NCBI GenBank assembly: GCA_002716945.1
Contig: PBCF01000003.1
Coordinates: 18,937 to 82,936 of the forward strand
Origin: Gammaproteobacteria bacterium
Lineage (GTDB): Bacteria > Pseudomonadota > Gammaproteobacteria > GCA-002705445 > GCA-002716945
Reading direction: 5' to 3'
DNA: 64,000 nt
Shown: one piece after another, positions 24,146-51,876 of the stretch
How the letters are laid out: each line of letters begins with the position of its first letter
Position numbering within the stretch: position 1 is the first letter of the stretch
Translations under genes and position numbers: made by a program
The notes under the pieces: model-generated
Databases searched by the model: none
Seen by the model: the letters and a program-made list of their open reading frames with translations, nothing else
Told to the model about the DNA's origin: nothing

Positions 24146-24172
24146 ACCCCCTCTTCCTTGAGGAGGTATTTT
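24146..24172 (+). terminator. Probable intrinsic terminator after the desaturase gene
   Basis: ACCCCCTC-TTCCTT-GAGGAGGT (one mismatch) followed by ATTTTGT. Confidence 0.65.
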
Positions 24173-24373
24173 GTCAACTTATTTATAGACATGATATAAA
24201 ATATATTATTATTGTCTAATATATTCTTATATAAGTATATTTTGTCTATACATTGTCCATAACAATACCATGACAAAGTATAAATTTCAACCAGTTTTAA
24301 GTAATTCTTACAATTATGGTCTGCTTTTTTTGATATGAGATGTCTAGAAAGCTGTAGTAATAAAAATCTTATA

Positions 24374-24401
24374 TTGACATAACTAATTGATTTTGTTTAA
24401 A
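24374..24401 (+). promoter_or_regulatory. Putative sigma70 promoter of the riboswitch transcript
   Basis: TTGACA (24374-24379), 16-bp spacer, TTTAAA (24396-24401); predicted TSS just before aptamer 1. Confidence 0.55.
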
Positions 24402-24408
24402 TGAATTC

Positions 24409-24493
24409 ACGCCGATTTGAACATCAGCTTGCCGGCGTAAAATAGCTAAAGCGATCGGTAACCATCATAGCTTTAGCGTGATGGTTTTTTTTT
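24409..24493 (+). ncRNA. SAM-II/SAM-V-superfamily aptamer 1 with expression-platform terminator
   Basis: P1 ACGCCG(24409-24414)/CGGCGT(24433-24438), loop ATTTGAACATCAGCTTGC, 3' AGCTAAA(24444-24450); terminator AACCATCA(24460-24467)/TGATGGTT(24479-24486)+T tract; antiterminator GCTAAAGC(24445-24452)/GCTTTAGC(24470-24477). Confidence 0.75.
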
Positions 24494-24549
24494 GGCATTT
24501 GATCTTCAGCTTGTGTGCCAGACCGATCAGGTAAAACACTAAAGAGGAG
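24493..24549 (+). ncRNA. SAM-V-like aptamer 2, overlapping the Shine-Dalgarno
   Basis: P1 TGGCA(24493-24497)/TGCCA(24516-24520), loop TTTGATCTTCAGCTTGTG; 3' CACTAAAGAGGAG overlaps SD GAGGAG (24544-24549), 6 nt before ATG at 24556. Confidence 0.75.
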
Positions 24550-24555
24550 TACAAA

Positions 24556-24939
24556 ATGAAAATTTTTAAAGATGGTATATTCGCAAATATTGCATCCCAT
24601 ACCAGCCTTTTCTCTCAAAATAAATCTCTTGTAGAGATATTTCTTTTGTCGAGTAGCTTAGGGGCTAATATCCCATTAGTGCAGTTAAATAACGACATAA
24701 GGGAATACTGCTGCGAGAATAAGGTTGATTGGTCTATTAAGAACCTTTCATCAACGGTAAATATAGGTAAAGAAAACACACATTGCTACGTTATCAAATT
24801 TAATACAGGTATCAGTAGTAATGTCGCAGATGATTTGATTTACAAACTAGCTTGTCACCTCGGTTTGAAATATAAATGTGTCCAATGCGCTTATCATTAT
24901 CGTGATAAAGAGAGAAAGATATCATTACATTACGATTAA
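24556..24939 (+). CDS. Uncharacterised 127-aa protein downstream of tandem SAM-type riboswitch
   Basis: ATG with strong SD GAGGAG; MKIFKDGIFANIASHTSLFSQNK...LGLKYKCVQCAYHYRDKERKISLHYD; no family recognised. Confidence 0.75.
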   Translation: MKIFKDGIFANIASHTSLFSQNKSLVEIFLLSSSLGANIPLVQLNNDIREYCCENKVDWSIKNLSSTVNIGKENTHCYVIKFNTGISSNVADDLIYKLACHLGLKYKCVQCAYHYRDKERKISLHYD

Positions 24940-43747: not shown

Positions 43748-45721
43748 CTATTCGCCAAGACCCATTTTAATATAACCTGTTGGGCAAACATCAGCACAGA
43801 TATGACAACCTATACATTTGTCATAATCAGTATCAACATATCTTCCCATTGTTGATGAATCTTTCTTTACTCTAAAAACAGCGTCTTGCGGACAATAAAT
43901 CACACAGTTATCACATTCAAAACACATACCACAACTCATACAACGTGAAGCTTCTTTAATGGCATCTTCTTCTGTCAATCCAATAATTCTATCTTCATGG
44001 TGATCTATTACATCATCGCCTGATGGTACTGCCTCACCTCTTTTAACTCTATCTTCATGTTTAAAATGCCCTAAAAATAATTCTGAATGAGGTATAACTT
44101 CTTGCGATGATCTGTCTTCATAGTTATGTACTACAGCTTTGCTGCTATCGGTACCTCTTTGGTCATCTGGATTTTCTAATGCAGGTTTGTAATTATCTGG
44201 TTGTAAATCAGTTTCTCTTAATTTTTCCAATAGATTAAAATGATGTACATCAACTTTAGGTCTTCTCTTAAAGTCCTTGTTTTCAAAGTAACTTTTAATA
44301 GATTGAGATGCTATGGAACCTTGTCCAATTGCTGTTGTTAATAAATGTGGTCTGATAATATCTCCTGCAACAAAATGACCTTCTTTTGTTTTGTGCCTAT
44401 AAAATTCATCAACCTCAAAAAAACCCTTATCATTCCCTAAATCTTCCAAACCTTCAATATCAGGTGATTGTCCTATAGCAGATACAATCAAATCAGCCTC
44501 TATTTTTTTCTCTGTTCCATCAACTGGTTTAGGAATATTATCTTCAAATTTACAATCAGCTACATATATAGCAGTTGCTCGATTTTTATCATCTTTTTCA
44601 ATTTTTGTTGGCATTACACCATTTAAAATTGTGACACCTTCATGCACCGCATCATTTACTTCTTGTTCTGCTGCTGTCATTTCTTCCTTTTTAAATAAGG
44701 ATGTTAAAGTTACATCTGCTCCTACTTTCATTGCAGTTTCTGATACATCCTGAGCTACATATCCATGTACAATACTTTCTGGTTTATCTTGAGGTTTTAA
44801 ACTTGAAATATGTCCTAATCTTCTAGCGACGGAAACTACATCAATAGATGTATCTCCTCCACCCACACAAACTACTTTTTTTGAACCAACTTTTAATCTA
44901 CCATCACAAAAAGCTTCTAGGAAGTCGACACCACTAATACAGTTTACAGCATCTCCACCATCCACCGGTAAAGCTTTTCCATTCCAACAACCTATAGTCC
45001 ACAAAACTGCATCATGTGATTTCTCTATATCTTTAAGTTCTATATCCTTACCGACTCTTTTATTAAGAACAACTTCAATATCTCCCAAATCTAATATTCT
45101 TTGAATTTCTTTATCTAAAAGATCTCGCGGAGTTCTATAACCTGGAATTCCATACTTCATCATTCCGCCTAGTTCAGACCTTTCCTCAAAAATTGTAGAT
45201 GCATATCCCATTTTTCTTAATTGAAATGCAGCTGATAGTCCAGCAGGCCCACCACCTATAATAGCTACTGTTTCTTTTTTTAATTTTGGTGCTTCTTCAA
45301 ATTTATAATTCTCTTTTAAAGCTGTGTCTCCAATATATTGTTCAACAGCATTTATGCCTACATAATCATCCACTTCATTTCTGTTACATCCTGTTTGACA
45401 AGGCGCCGGACATACTCTACCCATTTGAGATGGAAATGGGTTTGCAGTTGTTGATCTTCTAAAAGCATATTCTGACATGGACACATCAGTTGGCGGTTTT
45501 TCAATACCTCTAACAATCTGTAGCCATCCTCTTATATCTTCACCAGACGGACAACTACCCTGACATGGAGGTGTTTTATGGATATAGGTAGGACATTTAT
45601 GAGATTTATCTTCATTAAATATTTGTTCAGAAAAATCATCGTATACATGATCGCCTTCTTCATATCGACGATATGTATTATCTATTTTCATTAAATTTAT
45701 TTTTTTATCTGTATCTGCCAT
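43748..45721 (-). CDS. dsrL: DsrL, FAD/NAD(P)-dependent iron-sulfur oxidoreductase (glutamate synthase small-subunit-like)
   Basis: IIGGGPAGLSAAFQLRKMGY, CVGGGDTSIDVVSVARRLG, C-terminal two [4Fe-4S] motifs CMSCGMCFECDNCVIYCP and CIGCHICADVCP. Confidence 0.94.
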   Translation of the reverse strand: MADTDKKINLMKIDNTYRRYEEGDHVYDDFSEQIFNEDKSHKCPTYIHKTPPCQGSCPSGEDIRGWLQIVRGIEKPPTDVSMSEYAFRRSTTANPFPSQMGRVCPAPCQTGCNRNEVDDYVGINAVEQYIGDTALKENYKFEEAPKLKKETVAIIGGGPAGLSAAFQLRKMGYASTIFEERSELGGMMKYGIPGYRTPRDLLDKEIQRILDLGDIEVVLNKRVGKDIELKDIEKSHDAVLWTIGCWNGKALPVDGGDAVNCISGVDFLEAFCDGRLKVGSKKVVCVGGGDTSIDVVSVARRLGHISSLKPQDKPESIVHGYVAQDVSETAMKVGADVTLTSLFKKEEMTAAEQEVNDAVHEGVTILNGVMPTKIEKDDKNRATAIYVADCKFEDNIPKPVDGTEKKIEADLIVSAIGQSPDIEGLEDLGNDKGFFEVDEFYRHKTKEGHFVAGDIIRPHLLTTAIGQGSIASQSIKSYFENKDFKRRPKVDVHHFNLLEKLRETDLQPDNYKPALENPDDQRGTDSSKAVVHNYEDRSSQEVIPHSELFLGHFKHEDRVKRGEAVPSGDDVIDHHEDRIIGLTEEDAIKEASRCMSCGMCFECDNCVIYCPQDAVFRVKKDSSTMGRYVDTDYDKCIGCHICADVCPTGYIKMGLGE

Positions 45722-45780
45722 ATCTATATAAGTTTATTCTACTTTTCTAATAAAGACATTATATCATAAGAAAATGGCGT

Positions 45781-47280
45781 CTAAACCTCTTTTTTATTCA
45801 TAATTAAGGCGTTTCCTACCAATTGATGTAAGCTCACTATCTGGTCAAGTTCTAACCCATAGTACTGAAAAACCTTAGAAAATTGGCTTTTACAGATTGC
45901 ACATATAGCAGCCATATGAGTGACACCTTTCTCATCAACAACTTGCTTTAATGCTTCCATTCTTGGCAGTGCACCTTTTACTCTCAATTCAATAAGATCA
46001 TCTGTTAGGAGTCCACCACCTCCACCACAACAATAAGTCTTTTCTTTGATGGTTTCTTCATCCATATCAAAATAATTATTTGCGGCAGCTTTGATAATTT
46101 TTCTGGGTATGGAAAATTGTCCCCCCATAATACCTCCCATATTAGATGCTCGAGCTACATTACATGAATCATGATAAGTTAGAGTCATATCATCATTAGC
46201 TGATTTATCAAAATTCAAAACTTTTTTATCTATCAAATCATTAGTTACCTCACAAATATGTTGAGGGACTGGGTATCTGCTATCAAGAAAATCAAAAGGG
46301 CCTGCTAATGTATTTAAAAAACTATAAGCTACTCTCCAAGCATGACCACATTCACCAAAAACAATTCTTTTTACATTCAGTTCTAATGCTGCCTCTCTAA
46401 TCCGCAAAGCTAATTTTCTCATGTTCTCATAACTACCTATGAACATACCAAAATTTGCTGCCTCACTTGCATGAGAACTTAAAGTCCAACTAATTCCCGC
46501 CTGGTGAAATACCTTTGCGTATCCTATCAGTCCATCTACATGTGGTTCTGCAAAAAAATCTGCAGAAGGTGTAACTAATAATACGTCAGCACCTTTCTGA
46601 TCAAGTGGAAACTTAACATCAATTCCAACCTCATCTACAACGTCTTCTTCAAGTCCTTCTAAAGTATCTTCTAAGGCTGGTTCGGGTAATCCTAAATTAT
46701 TTCCAATTTTATGAACTTTACCTATAATTTCATTACAATATTTTTGGCCTACACCTATTGAATCCATAACTTCTCTAGCGGCCATTGATATTTCAGCCGT
46801 ATCAATTCCAATGGGGCAAAAAACAGCACATCTGCGACATTGTGAACATTGATGATAATATGAATACCATTCATCTAATACTTCTTTTGTTAAATCCTGC
46901 GCACCTACAAGTTTAGGGAAATATTTGCCAGGCAAAGTAAAATATCTTCTATAAACACTTCTCATTAAATTTTGTCGACCTACAGGCATATTATTTGGAT
47001 CTTTAGTGCCAAGATAATAATGACATTTATCAGTACAAGCACCACATTGCATACATGAATCAAGATAAACTCTTAATGATCTATATTTTTTTAATAAATC
47101 ACCCATTTTATCCAATGCTTTTTCTTGCCAATTATCAACAAGTTCACCAGGATAACCTAGTGATGACTGAAATTCTTCTTTAGATTTAAATGGCGCTAAA
47201 TGTAATGTAGCTTCTTTCTCTAAAGCAGGAATTACAGGATATTCTCTTATTTGTGGTGTATTAAATTTATTTTCAGCCAT
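45781..47280 (-). CDS. dsrK: DsrK, HdrD-like iron-sulfur subunit
   Basis: CMQCGACTDKCHYYLGT, CSQCRRCAVFCPIGID, CCG domain YCCGGGGGLLTDD. Confidence 0.94.
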   Translation of the reverse strand: MAENKFNTPQIREYPVIPALEKEATLHLAPFKSKEEFQSSLGYPGELVDNWQEKALDKMGDLLKKYRSLRVYLDSCMQCGACTDKCHYYLGTKDPNNMPVGRQNLMRSVYRRYFTLPGKYFPKLVGAQDLTKEVLDEWYSYYHQCSQCRRCAVFCPIGIDTAEISMAAREVMDSIGVGQKYCNEIIGKVHKIGNNLGLPEPALEDTLEGLEEDVVDEVGIDVKFPLDQKGADVLLVTPSADFFAEPHVDGLIGYAKVFHQAGISWTLSSHASEAANFGMFIGSYENMRKLALRIREAALELNVKRIVFGECGHAWRVAYSFLNTLAGPFDFLDSRYPVPQHICEVTNDLIDKKVLNFDKSANDDMTLTYHDSCNVARASNMGGIMGGQFSIPRKIIKAAANNYFDMDEETIKEKTYCCGGGGGLLTDDLIELRVKGALPRMEALKQVVDEKGVTHMAAICAICKSQFSKVFQYYGLELDQIVSLHQLVGNALIMNKKEV

Positions 47281-47295
47281 ATCATTACATTAAAA

Positions 47296-48027
47296 TTAGT
47301 TTTCTATTTCTCTTGCCCATTTTGAAATGTGTCTTTTTTCCCTTGCTGTATCTGTTTGATTTCTGGTTGGACTAAAAAATAATCCGGGCGCATGGAGTAG
47401 TTTACTGTATGGAAAAATTATCATTAATAATATTACTAAACTTAGATGTATCAAAAGCATAAAATCATTAGGTAATTCTGATAGTTGGAAATACATTAAA
47501 CCTAGAAAAAATTGTCTGACAGCCAAAATATCTGTTTGAAACCATTTCATCATTAAACCAGTTAAGGCTATCGAAATTATAAGTATTAAAATTAAATAGT
47601 CTGATGGAGATGATATATATCTTACTCTATCTACAAAAATTCTTCTTCCTAGTAATCCTAATAATCCAAAAATCATGACATAAGCACCATAATGTCCCGC
47701 TGCTTGAACTATATCAAATGAAACCCAAAACCAAACTGGATCAGTAAAATACTTCAGATGTCTAAATGCTGCAAGTAGTAATGCAAAATGAAAAAGCCAA
47801 CTAAACAACCATGTCCACTTTGTTGCTGAAAAAAGACTTTCAAACAAAACGACTTCTTTAAAGAATCTAAAAATGACACCTCGTTGTGTTTGAGGTGCTG
47901 GCGGCGTTGGTATCTTAAGTGGAGCTGGTATTATAGAATATTCATATATTCTGTAAGCCAAACCTACAAAGAGAATTATTGCTGCGACATAGAACAAAAC
48001 TGCATACAGTATCGTCACAAATGACAT
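47296..48027 (-). CDS. dsrM: DsrM, heme b membrane subunit (NarI-like)
   Basis: NarI-like TM protein with conserved His, upstream of dsrK. Confidence 0.92.
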   Translation of the reverse strand: MSFVTILYAVLFYVAAIILFVGLAYRIYEYSIIPAPLKIPTPPAPQTQRGVIFRFFKEVVLFESLFSATKWTWLFSWLFHFALLLAAFRHLKYFTDPVWFWVSFDIVQAAGHYGAYVMIFGLLGLLGRRIFVDRVRYISSPSDYLILILIISIALTGLMMKWFQTDILAVRQFFLGLMYFQLSELPNDFMLLIHLSLVILLMIIFPYSKLLHAPGLFFSPTRNQTDTAREKRHISKWAREIEN

Positions 48028-48054
48028 AATATGTTCTCCCTGCTTTTTGAGTTT

Positions 48055-48387
48055 TTACACGCAACCTGTTGGCTTAGGTAATCCAGCAAATTTACACGCT
48101 TGTTTCCCCGGTCCATATGGAAATAGTTCATACAAATATTTACTATTGCCTTTATCTTTACCAAGTTTTTTAGCTACAGCTTTTGTTAAAACGCGAACAG
48201 CAGGTGCAATTTGATATTCTTCATAGTATTCACGAAGAAAATTTATGATTTCCCAGTGATCATCACCTAAAGTAATATCTTCAGCTTCAGCCATCACACT
48301 AGCTACATCTTTTTCCCAGTCATTCAGATTAGAAAGATAGCCTTCTTCATCCGTTTCGAGCGATTTACCATTTACTTCGATAGTCAT
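48055..48387 (-). CDS. dsrC: DsrC, sulfur-carrier with both C-terminal cysteines
   Basis: LNDWEKDVASVMAEAEDITLGDDHWEIINFLREYYEEYQIAPAVRVLTKAV..LYELFPYGPGKQACKFAGLPKPTGCV. Confidence 0.97.
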   Translation of the reverse strand: MTIEVNGKSLETDEEGYLSNLNDWEKDVASVMAEAEDITLGDDHWEIINFLREYYEEYQIAPAVRVLTKAVAKKLGKDKGNSKYLYELFPYGPGKQACKFAGLPKPTGCV

Positions 48388-48401
48388 TTTAGCCTCCTAT
48401 T

Positions 48402-48704
48402 TTATAACCATGTTTGAGTTTTTTCATTTTCAACTGTAAGTTTTACAAATCCCTTATAACTTATAATCTCTATATTAGGGATTAGAGAATTTTTATCAAG
48501 CCCTCTAGCCTTTAAATCGGCTTCTAATACATAGAATTTGAAATTACTCGGGTTTTCTTTGATAAGTTCTGATATTTTAGTGTTATCAATAGCTGCATAT
48601 ACGCCGTCTTCTATAAGCAAAATAGATGATTCTGCTGCAGCTAGTCTCATGCATGTTTCAAAGCTATTTTTTTCATATGGTGATTTATTAATAGTATGTA
48701 ACAT
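48402..48704 (-). CDS. dsrH: DsrH
   Basis: TusB/DsrH fold; FETCMRLAAAESSILLIEDGVYAAI with conserved Cys. Confidence 0.92.
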   Translation of the reverse strand: MLHTINKSPYEKNSFETCMRLAAAESSILLIEDGVYAAIDNTKISELIKENPSNFKFYVLEADLKARGLDKNSLIPNIEIISYKGFVKLTVENEKTQTWL

Positions 48705-49087
48705 TAGAAATTAAAAATAACCTCGCTTGCTGTGATTAATTTTTTCATATCATTTGATGAAATAATTTCAACATCAACGGACAAATCATCTTCTTTTAAT
48801 CCTCTTTCATCTAACGATTCTTTTTCCACAAAAATCTTTTCAACATCATAGCCTTCTAGAGCAGAATAGATTTTTGAAAAATTCTTTGTATTTATATCAG
48901 CTGTATCTTGGTTTTTCTTTAATTGATATACACCGTCATCTATGAACGCTAAGGTTACATCTTGTTCAAATGCAGCTGCAATTAATACAACTTCAAGTGC
49001 TTCATGTGCATATATAGAACCATGTGGCGCTCTCCTATTGACATAGAGAAATTTTTTTACAATACCACTTTCTGCTTGCTCTTCCAT
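48704..49087 (-). CDS. dsrF: DsrF
   Basis: TusC/DsrF fold; APHGSIYAHEALEVVLIAAAFEQDVTLAFIDDGVYQL. Confidence 0.92.
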   Translation of the reverse strand: MEEQAESGIVKKFLYVNRRAPHGSIYAHEALEVVLIAAAFEQDVTLAFIDDGVYQLKKNQDTADINTKNFSKIYSALEGYDVEKIFVEKESLDERGLKEDDLSVDVEIISSNDMKKLITASEVIFNF

Positions 49088-49480
49088 TCAATCACCAAAT
49101 GTAATTAATCTATCCGATTGTATGCCGGCTTCAATCAGTTGTCCTAAACCAGAAATTCTAAAATTATCTGCAATATTATGGGCGTCTTTTTGATTACGCT
49201 TCATTTCATCTGGATCAACCATGCCTCTACGCTGTGCGGCAGCAACACACAATACTAAATCTAGTTTATATTCCTTTGCTAATTCAGACCATCTATTGGG
49301 AATATGTCGATCGTCTTGAGGTGGTGTAGCTAGTCTTGTGCCGTTATTAACACCATCATGATAGAAAAAAACTCTATAAATTTGATGTCCTTCATCAAGT
49401 GCTGCTTTTACAAAATGGTAGGCGGTATCAGATGCTTGATGCGTATACGGTCCTTCGTTGACTAAAATACCAAATTTCAT
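49088..49480 (-). CDS. dsrE: DsrE
   Basis: KFGILVNEGPYTHQASDTAYHFVKAALDEGHQIYRVFFYHDGV..LVLCVAAAQRRGM with active-site Cys. Confidence 0.95.
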   Translation of the reverse strand: MKFGILVNEGPYTHQASDTAYHFVKAALDEGHQIYRVFFYHDGVNNGTRLATPPQDDRHIPNRWSELAKEYKLDLVLCVAAAQRRGMVDPDEMKRNQKDAHNIADNFRISGLGQLIEAGIQSDRLITFGD

Positions 49481-49492
49481 ACCTTGCTATCT

Positions 49493-50596
49493 TTAAAATC
49501 TTATATACGTAGATGAATTTAATGTTTTTCTTCCGCCACGCCAGTTATCAATATGATATTTAGTGAAAGGTAATTCAGTTAGTTCAAAGAATCTTGGCCA
49601 ACCTATTCTATCTATCCAGTCATTAATTCGTTCCCAATCTCTAGCATCTTCTTTGTATGCTTGGAGAATTCTTTTGACTATTGCTGTTGCTTCTGGCCAT
49701 CTTGGTGGGTTATTTGGTATACCAGCAGCCACTAATTTTTGAAAAGTTGGCTTACTTCTAGCGTTAGAATGATTTCCTCCAACCCAAATAGCTAATTTAC
49801 TATGTTCAGGATCATTAATCTGCATTGGTGGGCAAGGAGGATAACAGGCTCCACAACAAATACATTTTTTTTCATCAACTTCTAAAGATGGCTTGCCATT
49901 AACCATTGCAGGTCTAATCGCAGCAACAGGGCACCTTGCCACTACCGAAGGTCTTTCGCAAACGTTTGATACTAAATCATGATTAATTTTTGGTGGTTTC
50001 GTATGTTGAATGTTGATTGCTATATCACCTTGACCTCCACAATTAATTTGACAACATGATGTGGTCATATGCACACGATTAGGCATTTCATTATTTTTAA
50101 ATTCATCAATTAACTCATCCATCATAGCTTTAACTACACCTGATGCGTCTGTACCAGGTATATCGCAGTGTAACCAGCCTTGAGTATGCGAAATCATCGC
50201 AACAGAATTCTTAGTTCCACCAACAATAAATCCTTCTTTCTCTAACTCTTTTATTAATGGGTCAACTTTATTGGCATCTTTTACCATATATTCAATATTG
50301 CTTCTGATAGTGAATCTTACATAACCATCGGCATACTTATCGCCAATGTCACATAGTTTACGAAGTGTAAATACATCTAGAATTCTTTGGGTACCTGCTC
50401 TAACGGTCCATATTTCTTCACCACTATTAGCAACATGTTTTAATACACCTGGTTTTGGGTGTTCATGATATTTCCATTGTCCAAAGTTTTTACGCATAGT
50501 TGGATGCATATACTGAAAGCCATCAGGGCAACCTGTTTCGATCGGGGTTCTAGGTTTAGCTTTTTCTTCAACTTTTTCTGGTGTTTTATCGGTCAT
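49493..50596 (-). CDS. dsrB: Reverse dissimilatory sulfite reductase beta subunit
   Basis: HVANSGEEIWTVRAGTQRILDVFTLRKLCDIGDKYADGYVRFTIRSNIEYMV; CCQINCGGQGD siroheme/FeS; CICCGACYPPCPP. Confidence 0.97.
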   Translation of the reverse strand: MTDKTPEKVEEKAKPRTPIETGCPDGFQYMHPTMRKNFGQWKYHEHPKPGVLKHVANSGEEIWTVRAGTQRILDVFTLRKLCDIGDKYADGYVRFTIRSNIEYMVKDANKVDPLIKELEKEGFIVGGTKNSVAMISHTQGWLHCDIPGTDASGVVKAMMDELIDEFKNNEMPNRVHMTTSCCQINCGGQGDIAINIQHTKPPKINHDLVSNVCERPSVVARCPVAAIRPAMVNGKPSLEVDEKKCICCGACYPPCPPMQINDPEHSKLAIWVGGNHSNARSKPTFQKLVAAGIPNNPPRWPEATAIVKRILQAYKEDARDWERINDWIDRIGWPRFFELTELPFTKYHIDNWRGGRKTLNSSTYIRF

Positions 50597-50598
50597 TA

Positions 50599-51876
50599 TT
50601 ATGCAGTTTCCTTCTTATCAGCTTTTTCATACCACTTAACAGCTTCTTGATCCCAATCATCTGTTCGGACATAAGAGCTTTCTCTTGGGTTTGCAACCAT
50701 ATTTGGATCAACATCAATTCCTATTCCGTCTAGGAAATTAACTAGTCCAATTCTTTCAATCATCTCTCCACATCTTTCATGTTCTAATGCATTATCAGCC
50801 CAAAAATCGATTGTGTTTTCAGCTATTTCGACAAGTTTTTCCCAATCTTCATCTTTTTCAAGTTTCATAAATGGAACAATTACTGTCCCCATTAAATCAC
50901 CTATTTTCAAAGTTCTCTTACCACCTATTAAAACTGTAGCGCCCCGATCATCACCAGGGTGAAGAGCCTTAGGAACTACATTCAAGCAGTGCATACATTT
51001 AACGCAATTCTTGTTATCTATTTCAATAGAATCATCATCATTCAAAGATATGGCGTTTGTAGGGCATCTTGTAATTATGTTATCTATAATATATTTGCGT
51101 CCTTTCAATTTTGCATATTTTTTAAATTCCTTTTGATCTACTTTGATATCATCTTTCCATGTTCCTATTACAGACATGTCTGCTCTCTCAATAGAATTCA
51201 TACAATCATTTGGGCATCCTGAAACTTTAAATTTAAATTTATATGGTAATGCTGGTCGATGCATATCATCTACAAAATTATTTACTAATAATCTATGGGC
51301 TTTATGTTCATTGATATTAGACATTTCACATCTACCTGCGCCAACACATGACATTGCTGTTCTAACACAAGGTCCTGCTCCACCCAAATCAAATCCATAG
51401 TTATTAATATCATCAAAAAAATGTTGGGTGGCTTCTGTTGTAGCACCAATAAACATTATATTCCCAGTCTGGCCATGAAATGTTACTAAACCAGAACCAT
51501 GTTTTTCCCAACTATCAGCGAGTCTTCTTAACATGGAAGTTGAGTAATAATTACCAGCTGGTGGTTGTACTCTTAACGTATGAAATTCTTTAGATGCTGG
51601 AAAAGCTTGTCCTACCTCTGAAAATCTAGGAATAATTCCACCACCATATCCATAAACACTAACTGTGCCACCTTTCCAATAACCTTTTCGAGTTTCATAT
51701 GAATGCTCCAACTGACCTAACAAATCATTAGTCATATCATTGATTCTTTTATCAGGATGTTTGTCTCGTAAAGTCTTTATGCCGCTGATAAAACTAGGCC
51801 ACGGGCCTGTTTCCAAATCATCAAGCATTGGTGTATCATGTTTTTTCATAAAATCAGCATCCCCATTGGATTTCAA
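50599..51876 (-). CDS. dsrA: Reverse dissimilatory sulfite reductase alpha subunit
   Basis: LETGPWPSFISGIK, YGYGGGIIPRFSE, CVRTAMSCVGAGRCEMS, SGCPNDCMNSIERADMSVIGTWKDDI, CVKCMHCLNVVPKALHPGDDRGATVLIGGK. Confidence 0.97.
   Translation of the reverse strand: MKSNGDADFMKKHDTPMLDDLETGPWPSFISGIKTLRDKHPDKRINDMTNDLLGQLEHSYETRKGYWKGGTVSVYGYGGGIIPRFSEVGQAFPASKEFHTLRVQPPAGNYYSTSMLRRLADSWEKHGSGLVTFHGQTGNIMFIGATTEATQHFFDDINNYGFDLGGAGPCVRTAMSCVGAGRCEMSNINEHKAHRLLVNNFVDDMHRPALPYKFKFKVSGCPNDCMNSIERADMSVIGTWKDDIKVDQKEFKKYAKLKGRKYIIDNIITRCPTNAISLNDDDSIEIDNKNCVKCMHCLNVVPKALHPGDDRGATVLIGGKRTLKIGDLMGTVIVPFMKLEKDEDWEKLVEIAENTIDFWADNALEHERCGEMIERIGLVNFLDGIGIDVDPNMVANPRESSYVRTDDWDQEAVKWYEKADKKETA

Follow-up and report, generated by a model that had tools for sequence, protein, structure and literature searches.

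A predicted SAM-II/SAM-V tandem riboswitch in the leader of an orphan gene from marine Gammaproteobacteria

In a 64,000-nucleotide stretch of gammaproteobacterial DNA, referred to here as the window, the leader of one gene very probably comprises a SAM-II aptamer followed by a SAM-V aptamer, a tandem that is predicted to bind SAM and to switch expression at two levels, transcription and translation. The regulated gene (24556-24939, plus strand) encodes a 127-residue orphan protein with a predicted ferredoxin/GlnB-like fold. Tandems of this kind are already known, and the original paper on the bhmT tandem of 'Candidatus Pelagibacter ubique' is reportedly that of Poiata in 2009. Among sequenced organisms the pairing has been reported from 'Ca. 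Pelagibacter' (PMC5069961), and a review from 2022 puts the number of tandems at 149 (PMC9481103); in the literature searched, a set without the original 2009 paper, no report of a SAM-II/SAM-V tandem in Gammaproteobacteria was found. New here are the gammaproteobacterial family, the orphan target, a longer mask over the Shine-Dalgarno (SD) sequence and a predicted helix between the two aptamers. Throughout a family of marine Gammaproteobacteria, the tandem is conserved in front of one and the same gene.

All elements of the locus lie on the plus strand. The upstream gene, of the fatty-acid-hydroxylase family, ends in its own terminator (24150-24166), so the riboswitch gene forms a separate transcription unit. 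A putative promoter at 24375-24403 comprises TTGACA (24375-24380), a 17-nt spacer and TTAAAT (24398-24403), with SAM-II P1 starting 5 nt on, a placement from which the transcript should start about at P1. Although absent from the matches of a simple consensus scan, the promoter recurs across 18 leaders of the family: TTGACA with the 17-nt spacer is found in all 18, with TGTAAT, TTAAAT or a similar −10 box that lies 5-7 nt before SAM-II P1 in the aligned leaders, as anchored by our script. The SAM-II aptamer (24409-24452) has P1 arms ACGCCG/CGGCGT (24409-24414/24433-24438), a UUUGA..CAGCUUGC loop and a P2 3' strand, GCUAAAGC in RNA and GCTAAAGC as DNA, at 24445-24452. Directly after this tail comes GAUCGGU (24453-24459), the 5' strand of the candidate inter-aptamer helix. 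An intrinsic terminator follows (24460-24493; folding z −2.84), with arms AACCATCA/TGATGGTT at 24460-24467/24479-24486 and a T9 run at 24485-24493; its loop holds the antiterminator partner GCUUUAGC (DNA GCTTTAGC; 24470-24477), which is complementary to GCUAAAGC. The SAM-V aptamer (24494-24549) is built from P1, (U)GGCA/UGCC(A) at 24494-24497/24516-24519, and P2, in which GUG (24513-24515) pairs with CAC (24537-24539), the latter running into CUAAA (24539-24543). Its P2a anti-SD strand UCUUC (24503-24507) can pair with GAGGA (24544-24548) of the SD GAGGAG (24544-24549), and the ATG at 24556 lies 6 nt downstream of the SD.

The first-pass annotation of this DNA had described two adjacent modules built around a shared repeat, and the repeat is indeed present: ATTTGAACATCAGCTTG (24415-24431) and ATTTGATCTTCAGCTTG (24497-24513) are identical at 15 of 17 positions. 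A check of the sequence likewise located, at the coordinates given above, the P1 stems, the CTAAA tails, the terminator with its T9 and the antiterminator that it had listed, and the tail of the second module does sit on the SD, CACTAAA (24537-24543) adjoining GAGGAG. The annotation had overlooked the predicted 7-bp helix between the modules.

The annotation had proposed an Rfam cmscan as a check, which gave a divided answer. At gathering thresholds (36 bits for RF00521, 41 bits for RF01826) the scan of the 64-kb window was empty, both modules falling short; a permissive scan of 24200-24700 matched both aptamer models with order, strand and spacing as expected of the tandem: SAM_alpha (SAM-II) at 24399-24470 (23.1 bits, E 0.0046, plus strand) and SAM_V at 24484-24552 (29.1 bits, E 0.011, plus strand). 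Matches to PyrR, CRISPR-DR43, Bp2_287 and R2 in the same permissive scan were at chance level and were set aside. Sub-gathering scores, and a downstream gene with no known link to methionine metabolism, would be expected of a non-functional copy that has decayed or been relocated, or of a regulatory RNA of like shape that does not sense SAM. We consider either highly improbable. The SAM-II modules of SAR11 tandems themselves score 29.2-34.8 bits in two or three of four cases, under 36, so the cut-off has no discriminating power for this subgroup, and the SAM-II of the HTCC1062 bhmT leader is left unreported by SAM_alpha at E<=1. SAR11 SAM-V modules exceed the RF01826 gathering score; SAM_V reaches up to 40.1 bits in the family relatives and 31.7-40.3 bits at viral and other alphaproteobacterial loci. 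Further against a decayed or unrelated RNA, a covariance model of SAM-II plus terminator (R1), with a training set of 16 SAR11 leaders only, matched 24408-24493 at 44 bits (E=5e-9 in the 64 kb, 8.7e-8 in the genome). The site is the only significant match genome-wide, with the runner-up at 13.9 bits, and R1 scores 34-48 bits in all 18 family leaders with a complete module, a result that points to module 1 as a SAM-II of the SAR11 tandem type. In layout, this module has P1, the UUUGA/UUGC loop and the GCUAAA P2 strand in pseudoknot order; the core of module 2 has GGCAUUUGA, UUGUG, CACUAAA, P1 and P2, with the SD within its 3' end. On sequence grounds, the subclasses that the first-pass annotation had left open can be assigned as SAM-II (RF00521) for module 1 and SAM-V (RF01826) for module 2.

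Conservation within the family also speaks against decay. The promoter, both aptamers, the terminator and antiterminator, and the SD mask are preserved in the 18 leaders, compensatory changes included, as are the promoter spacing and the UUUGA, UUG and CUAAA motifs of known SAM-II and SAM-V aptamers. In a hand-curated set of 14 distinct leaders, 96.3% of cells are paired, and 95.5% for the antiterminator GCUUUAGC/GCUAAAGC. Each of four helices shows a two-sided compensatory change: G-C to U-A in SAM-II P1, CG/UA in the terminator arms, C-G to U-A in SAM-V P1, and a GC/AU exchange with a GU intermediate in the inter-aptamer helix. None of 500 shuffles and none of the slid controls reaches the joint covariation score. 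P2a measures 4-5 bp in 18 of 18 gammaproteobacterial leaders, either as the 5-bp UCUUC:GAGGA or, in one clade, as the 4-bp CUCU:AGAG in another register; none of the SAR11 leaders examined exceeds 3 bp. It is on sequence comparison and covariation that aptamer identity, terminator, antiterminator, SD mask and inter-aptamer complementarity rest.

We compared the leader with SAR11 tandems, taking genome G969 as 'Ca. P. ubique' HTCC1062 on the strength of its SAM-V sites, whose positions (1127359, 1005818 and 732787) place them in the intergenic regions listed for bhmT, metY and mmuM (PMC2704228). Shared with the HTCC1062 bhmT tandem are the order SAM-II then SAM-V, the terminator between them and the SAM-V CUAAA beside the SD; shared with SAR11 tandems including bhmT is a GCUAAAGC/GCUUUAG antiterminator with GCUUUAG in the terminator loop. 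The resemblance to marine tandems that the first-pass annotation had pointed to holds up in direct comparison, and its proposal of a tandem with dual control is supported by Rfam order, the SAR11-trained model, this comparison and the conservation across 18 leaders. The SAR11 bhmT tandem differs in its host, in its target (bhmT or metY rather than an orphan gene) and in having a spacer where the gammaproteobacterial terminator U-run abuts SAM-V P1; the gammaproteobacterial leader also has the predicted inter-aptamer helix in place of a local P3, and the longer P2a over the SD. Module 1 resembles the SAM-II family (RF00521; PDB 2QWY) as an H-type pseudoknot with a GAUUUGA loop, a UUGC/GCUAAA P2 and terminator control, but scores low against its model, and its GAUCGGU tail is predicted to pair with SAM-V L3. 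Module 2 has the GGCAUUUGA...UUGUG...CACUAAA core and the P2a over the SD of SAM-V (RF01826; PDB 6FZ0); it too scores low, its L3 would pair with the upstream module, and its P2a has 4-5 bp versus 2-3. A second tandem architecture was seen in four SAR11 metY leaders, where a SAM-II-like sequence runs straight into SAM-V without a terminator.

In the mechanism that we propose, SAM bound during transcription would hold GCUAAAGC in the SAM-II pseudoknot and allow the terminator to form; with SAM absent, GCUAAAGC would be free to pair with GCUUUAGC, in the loop of the terminator, and the polymerase would read through. On the read-through mRNA, SAM on the SAM-V aptamer would draw CACUAAA into P2, with P2a covering the SD. 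We infer SAM binding and the OFF direction, the latter from the SAM-V model (PMC6061858) and from SAR11, where sulfur limitation raises the expression of SAM-V genes (PMC5069961). RNAfold, whose predictions are for equilibrium and place the two pseudoknots outside the model, prefers the terminator over the antiterminator without ligand in nearly all gammaproteobacterial leaders, so read-through must depend on co-transcriptional kinetics; the order of events given here for the cell is a proposed one.

In SAR11 bhmT, the linker reportedly blocks SAM-II, which as part of the full-length RNA is unresponsive to SAM in vitro (PMC11508383). The same could apply to the gammaproteobacterial leader, with SAM-II masked by the linker, only SAM-V working in the full-length RNA and control mainly translational. 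We think this unlikely, as the masking strand is predicted to be almost never paired to SAM-II in the full-length gammaproteobacterial RNA, and the terminator arms and antiterminator are maintained, through compensation or through changes that are tolerated, a pattern that speaks for a functional switch at the level of transcription. For the full-length HTCC1062 bhmT leader, RNAfold gives the antiterminator a probability of 1.00 and the terminator 0.00, a preference that the gammaproteobacterial leaders reverse; SAR11 leaders as a group are mixed. In these models, an antiterminator that traps the SAM-II P2 strand offers an explanation for the unresponsive bhmT SAM-II, and the folding predicts that the gammaproteobacterial SAM-II stays SAM-responsive in full-length RNA. 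The two tandems lend themselves to direct comparison of why the full-length SAR11 SAM-II loses its SAM response.

The GAUCGGU that follows the SAM-II tail is complementary to ACCGAUC (24522-24528) in loop L3 of SAM-V. At 37 °C, RNAfold gives this helix a mean pair probability of at least 0.80 in 18 of 18 gammaproteobacterial leaders, and with the leader cut back to the SAM-V tail, 6-8 pairs still exceed p=0.3 in all 18; at 15 °C some leaders show a weaker helix. None of the 19 SAR11 tandems is predicted to form it, and in most of them a local P3 hairpin is possible at this place. One clade of the family has altered both strands, to GAUCAGU:ACUGAUC, a single clade-level compensatory change, and one of its members holds the G-U intermediate. 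Taken alone, the helix is equalled in covariation score by 20 of 500 shuffles and in percentage paired by 75, and by itself it is only moderately supported. Within L3, positions beside the complementary core vary and most of the core is conserved.

We propose that the 6-8-bp helix likely forms once SAM-V has been made and would take the place of the local SAM-V P3. The antiterminator and the helix together would make a pseudoknot without linking nucleotides; from their order along the RNA, the two should be mutually exclusive. The helix would tip the balance from the antiterminator to the terminator hairpin, thereby releasing the SAM-II P2 strand. Keeping L3 unpaired costs 3-6 kcal/mol in the predictions and raises the antiterminator probability from 0.05 to 0.66 in the window leader; in most of one clade it climbs to about 0.8, and several other leaders hardly respond.

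The leader may instead work exactly as in SAR11, as two independent aptamers at two levels, with GAUCGGU/ACCGAUC incidental and L3 folding into its own P3 hairpin, ACC-GAUCA-GGU. Several observations fit this: SAM-V structures contain P3, which is noted in SAM-V and absent in SAM-II (PMC6061858), and a local P3 is possible in most SAR11 tandems; the gammaproteobacterial L3 can fold a local hairpin of 2-4 bp that covaries from ACC/GGU to ACU/AGU, so that the C-to-U change in L3 could also keep the local hairpin; and since GAUC is self-complementary, four of the inter-aptamer pairs come easily. At 37 °C, however, the local hairpin stays below a probability of 0.1 in the whole leader, L3 would be matched over all 7 bp by chance with a probability of about 0.8%, and independent aptamers leave unexplained both the conservation of GAUCGGU and the G-to-A change by which the SAM-II tail matches the L3 C-to-U of one clade. 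We regard independent operation as a somewhat doubtful prospect and lean towards the inter-aptamer helix being a working part of the leader. That the helix couples the two modules is not quite an even prospect. Tentatively, the SAM-II tail would replace SAM-V P3, and the resulting continuous structure would dissolve the antiterminator after read-through, leaving both SAM sensors active on one mRNA, in contrast to SAR11 bhmT with its linker-masked SAM-II. In this model, the new feature is a SAM-V loop paired with the SAM-II tail, set against the local hairpin of most SAR11 tandems.

The 127-residue protein has no Pfam or NCBIfam match. An AF2 model from 15 sequences (pLDDT 77.6, pTM 0.72) has a beta-alpha-beta-beta-alpha-beta-beta arrangement; a second, single-sequence model was of low confidence (pLDDT 37) and was left unused. 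With the first model, the top PDB matches in Foldseek are the phage SAM lyase structures 6zm9/6znb (Svi3-3/T3 SAMase; PMC7877911), at a marginal E of 1.9e-3 and a TM of 0.50. Comparison by hhalign with T3-type SAMases, a set without Svi3-3-type sequences, gave a probability of 0.1 on a percent scale, no match to PF23780 was found, and no conserved acidic residue occurs at the start of the strand that, by secondary-structure order only, matches the one bearing the catalytic Glu (Svi3-3 E69, T3 E68) described in PMC7877911. On the hhalign result and the missing Glu we reject membership of the SAM lyases, which Foldseek had suggested; repression by SAM would also be the wrong regulatory logic for a lyase. 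We therefore describe the protein as an orphan with a predicted GlnB-like fold. Its invariant residues include R49, C53, K97, K107, C111, H125 and Y126. PHROG gave weak matches without a known function, the best at E 0.0029, and no phage or viral homologue was found. A SAM-controlled orphan gene whose product has a GlnB/SAM-lyase-like predicted fold is a candidate new part of SAM homeostasis. In five of the relatives, the 3' end of the gene is overlapped, or immediately followed, by a second ORF in a shifted frame; this ORF is alike across these genomes (MVMKERYASIIEQLKWIPISYRHDGLQ...), has no Pfam family above cut-off, and has no counterpart in the window.

Relatives of the protein come from uncultured marine Gammaproteobacteria. 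Within the host's family, 17 of 25 genomes, that of the window among them, encode a homologue; a profile search across the class detected the gene in 2 of 229 genomes, both belonging to this family. A single tandem is present in the window genome. A dsr cluster elsewhere in the window (43751-51849) encodes dsrA, dsrB, dsrE/F (tusD/tusC), dsrC and an NAD(P)-binding protein and marks the host as probably a sulfur oxidiser; with a genome of 1.09 Mb, it is probably a streamlined one.

SAM-V-like elements were also seen at other loci. A search of viral contigs with the pattern AGCTAAAGCGATCNGT returned only matches unlike the tandem. On six IMG/VR contigs, solo SAM-V-like riboswitches lie a few nucleotides before small phage ORFs, with Rfam scores of 40.3 bits on L110 and 31.7 bits on L092; such phage copies could serve in counter-sensing or help to spread the motif. 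Two alphaproteobacterial contigs carry SAM-II/SAM-V tandems with terminators, joined in one of them (L127) by a further solo SAM-V, before small unknown ORFs. In two alphaproteobacterial genomes, sub-gathering SAM-V matches (39.6 and 33.6 bits) precede an ORF starting MKKHIIKKLLTLIPILALVFFTS, the start of a secreted or membrane protein. One further solo SAM-V-like element (38.8 bits), on a possibly contaminant contig (G012:C7), stands before an ORF starting MATINLSESNDIIIPTND.
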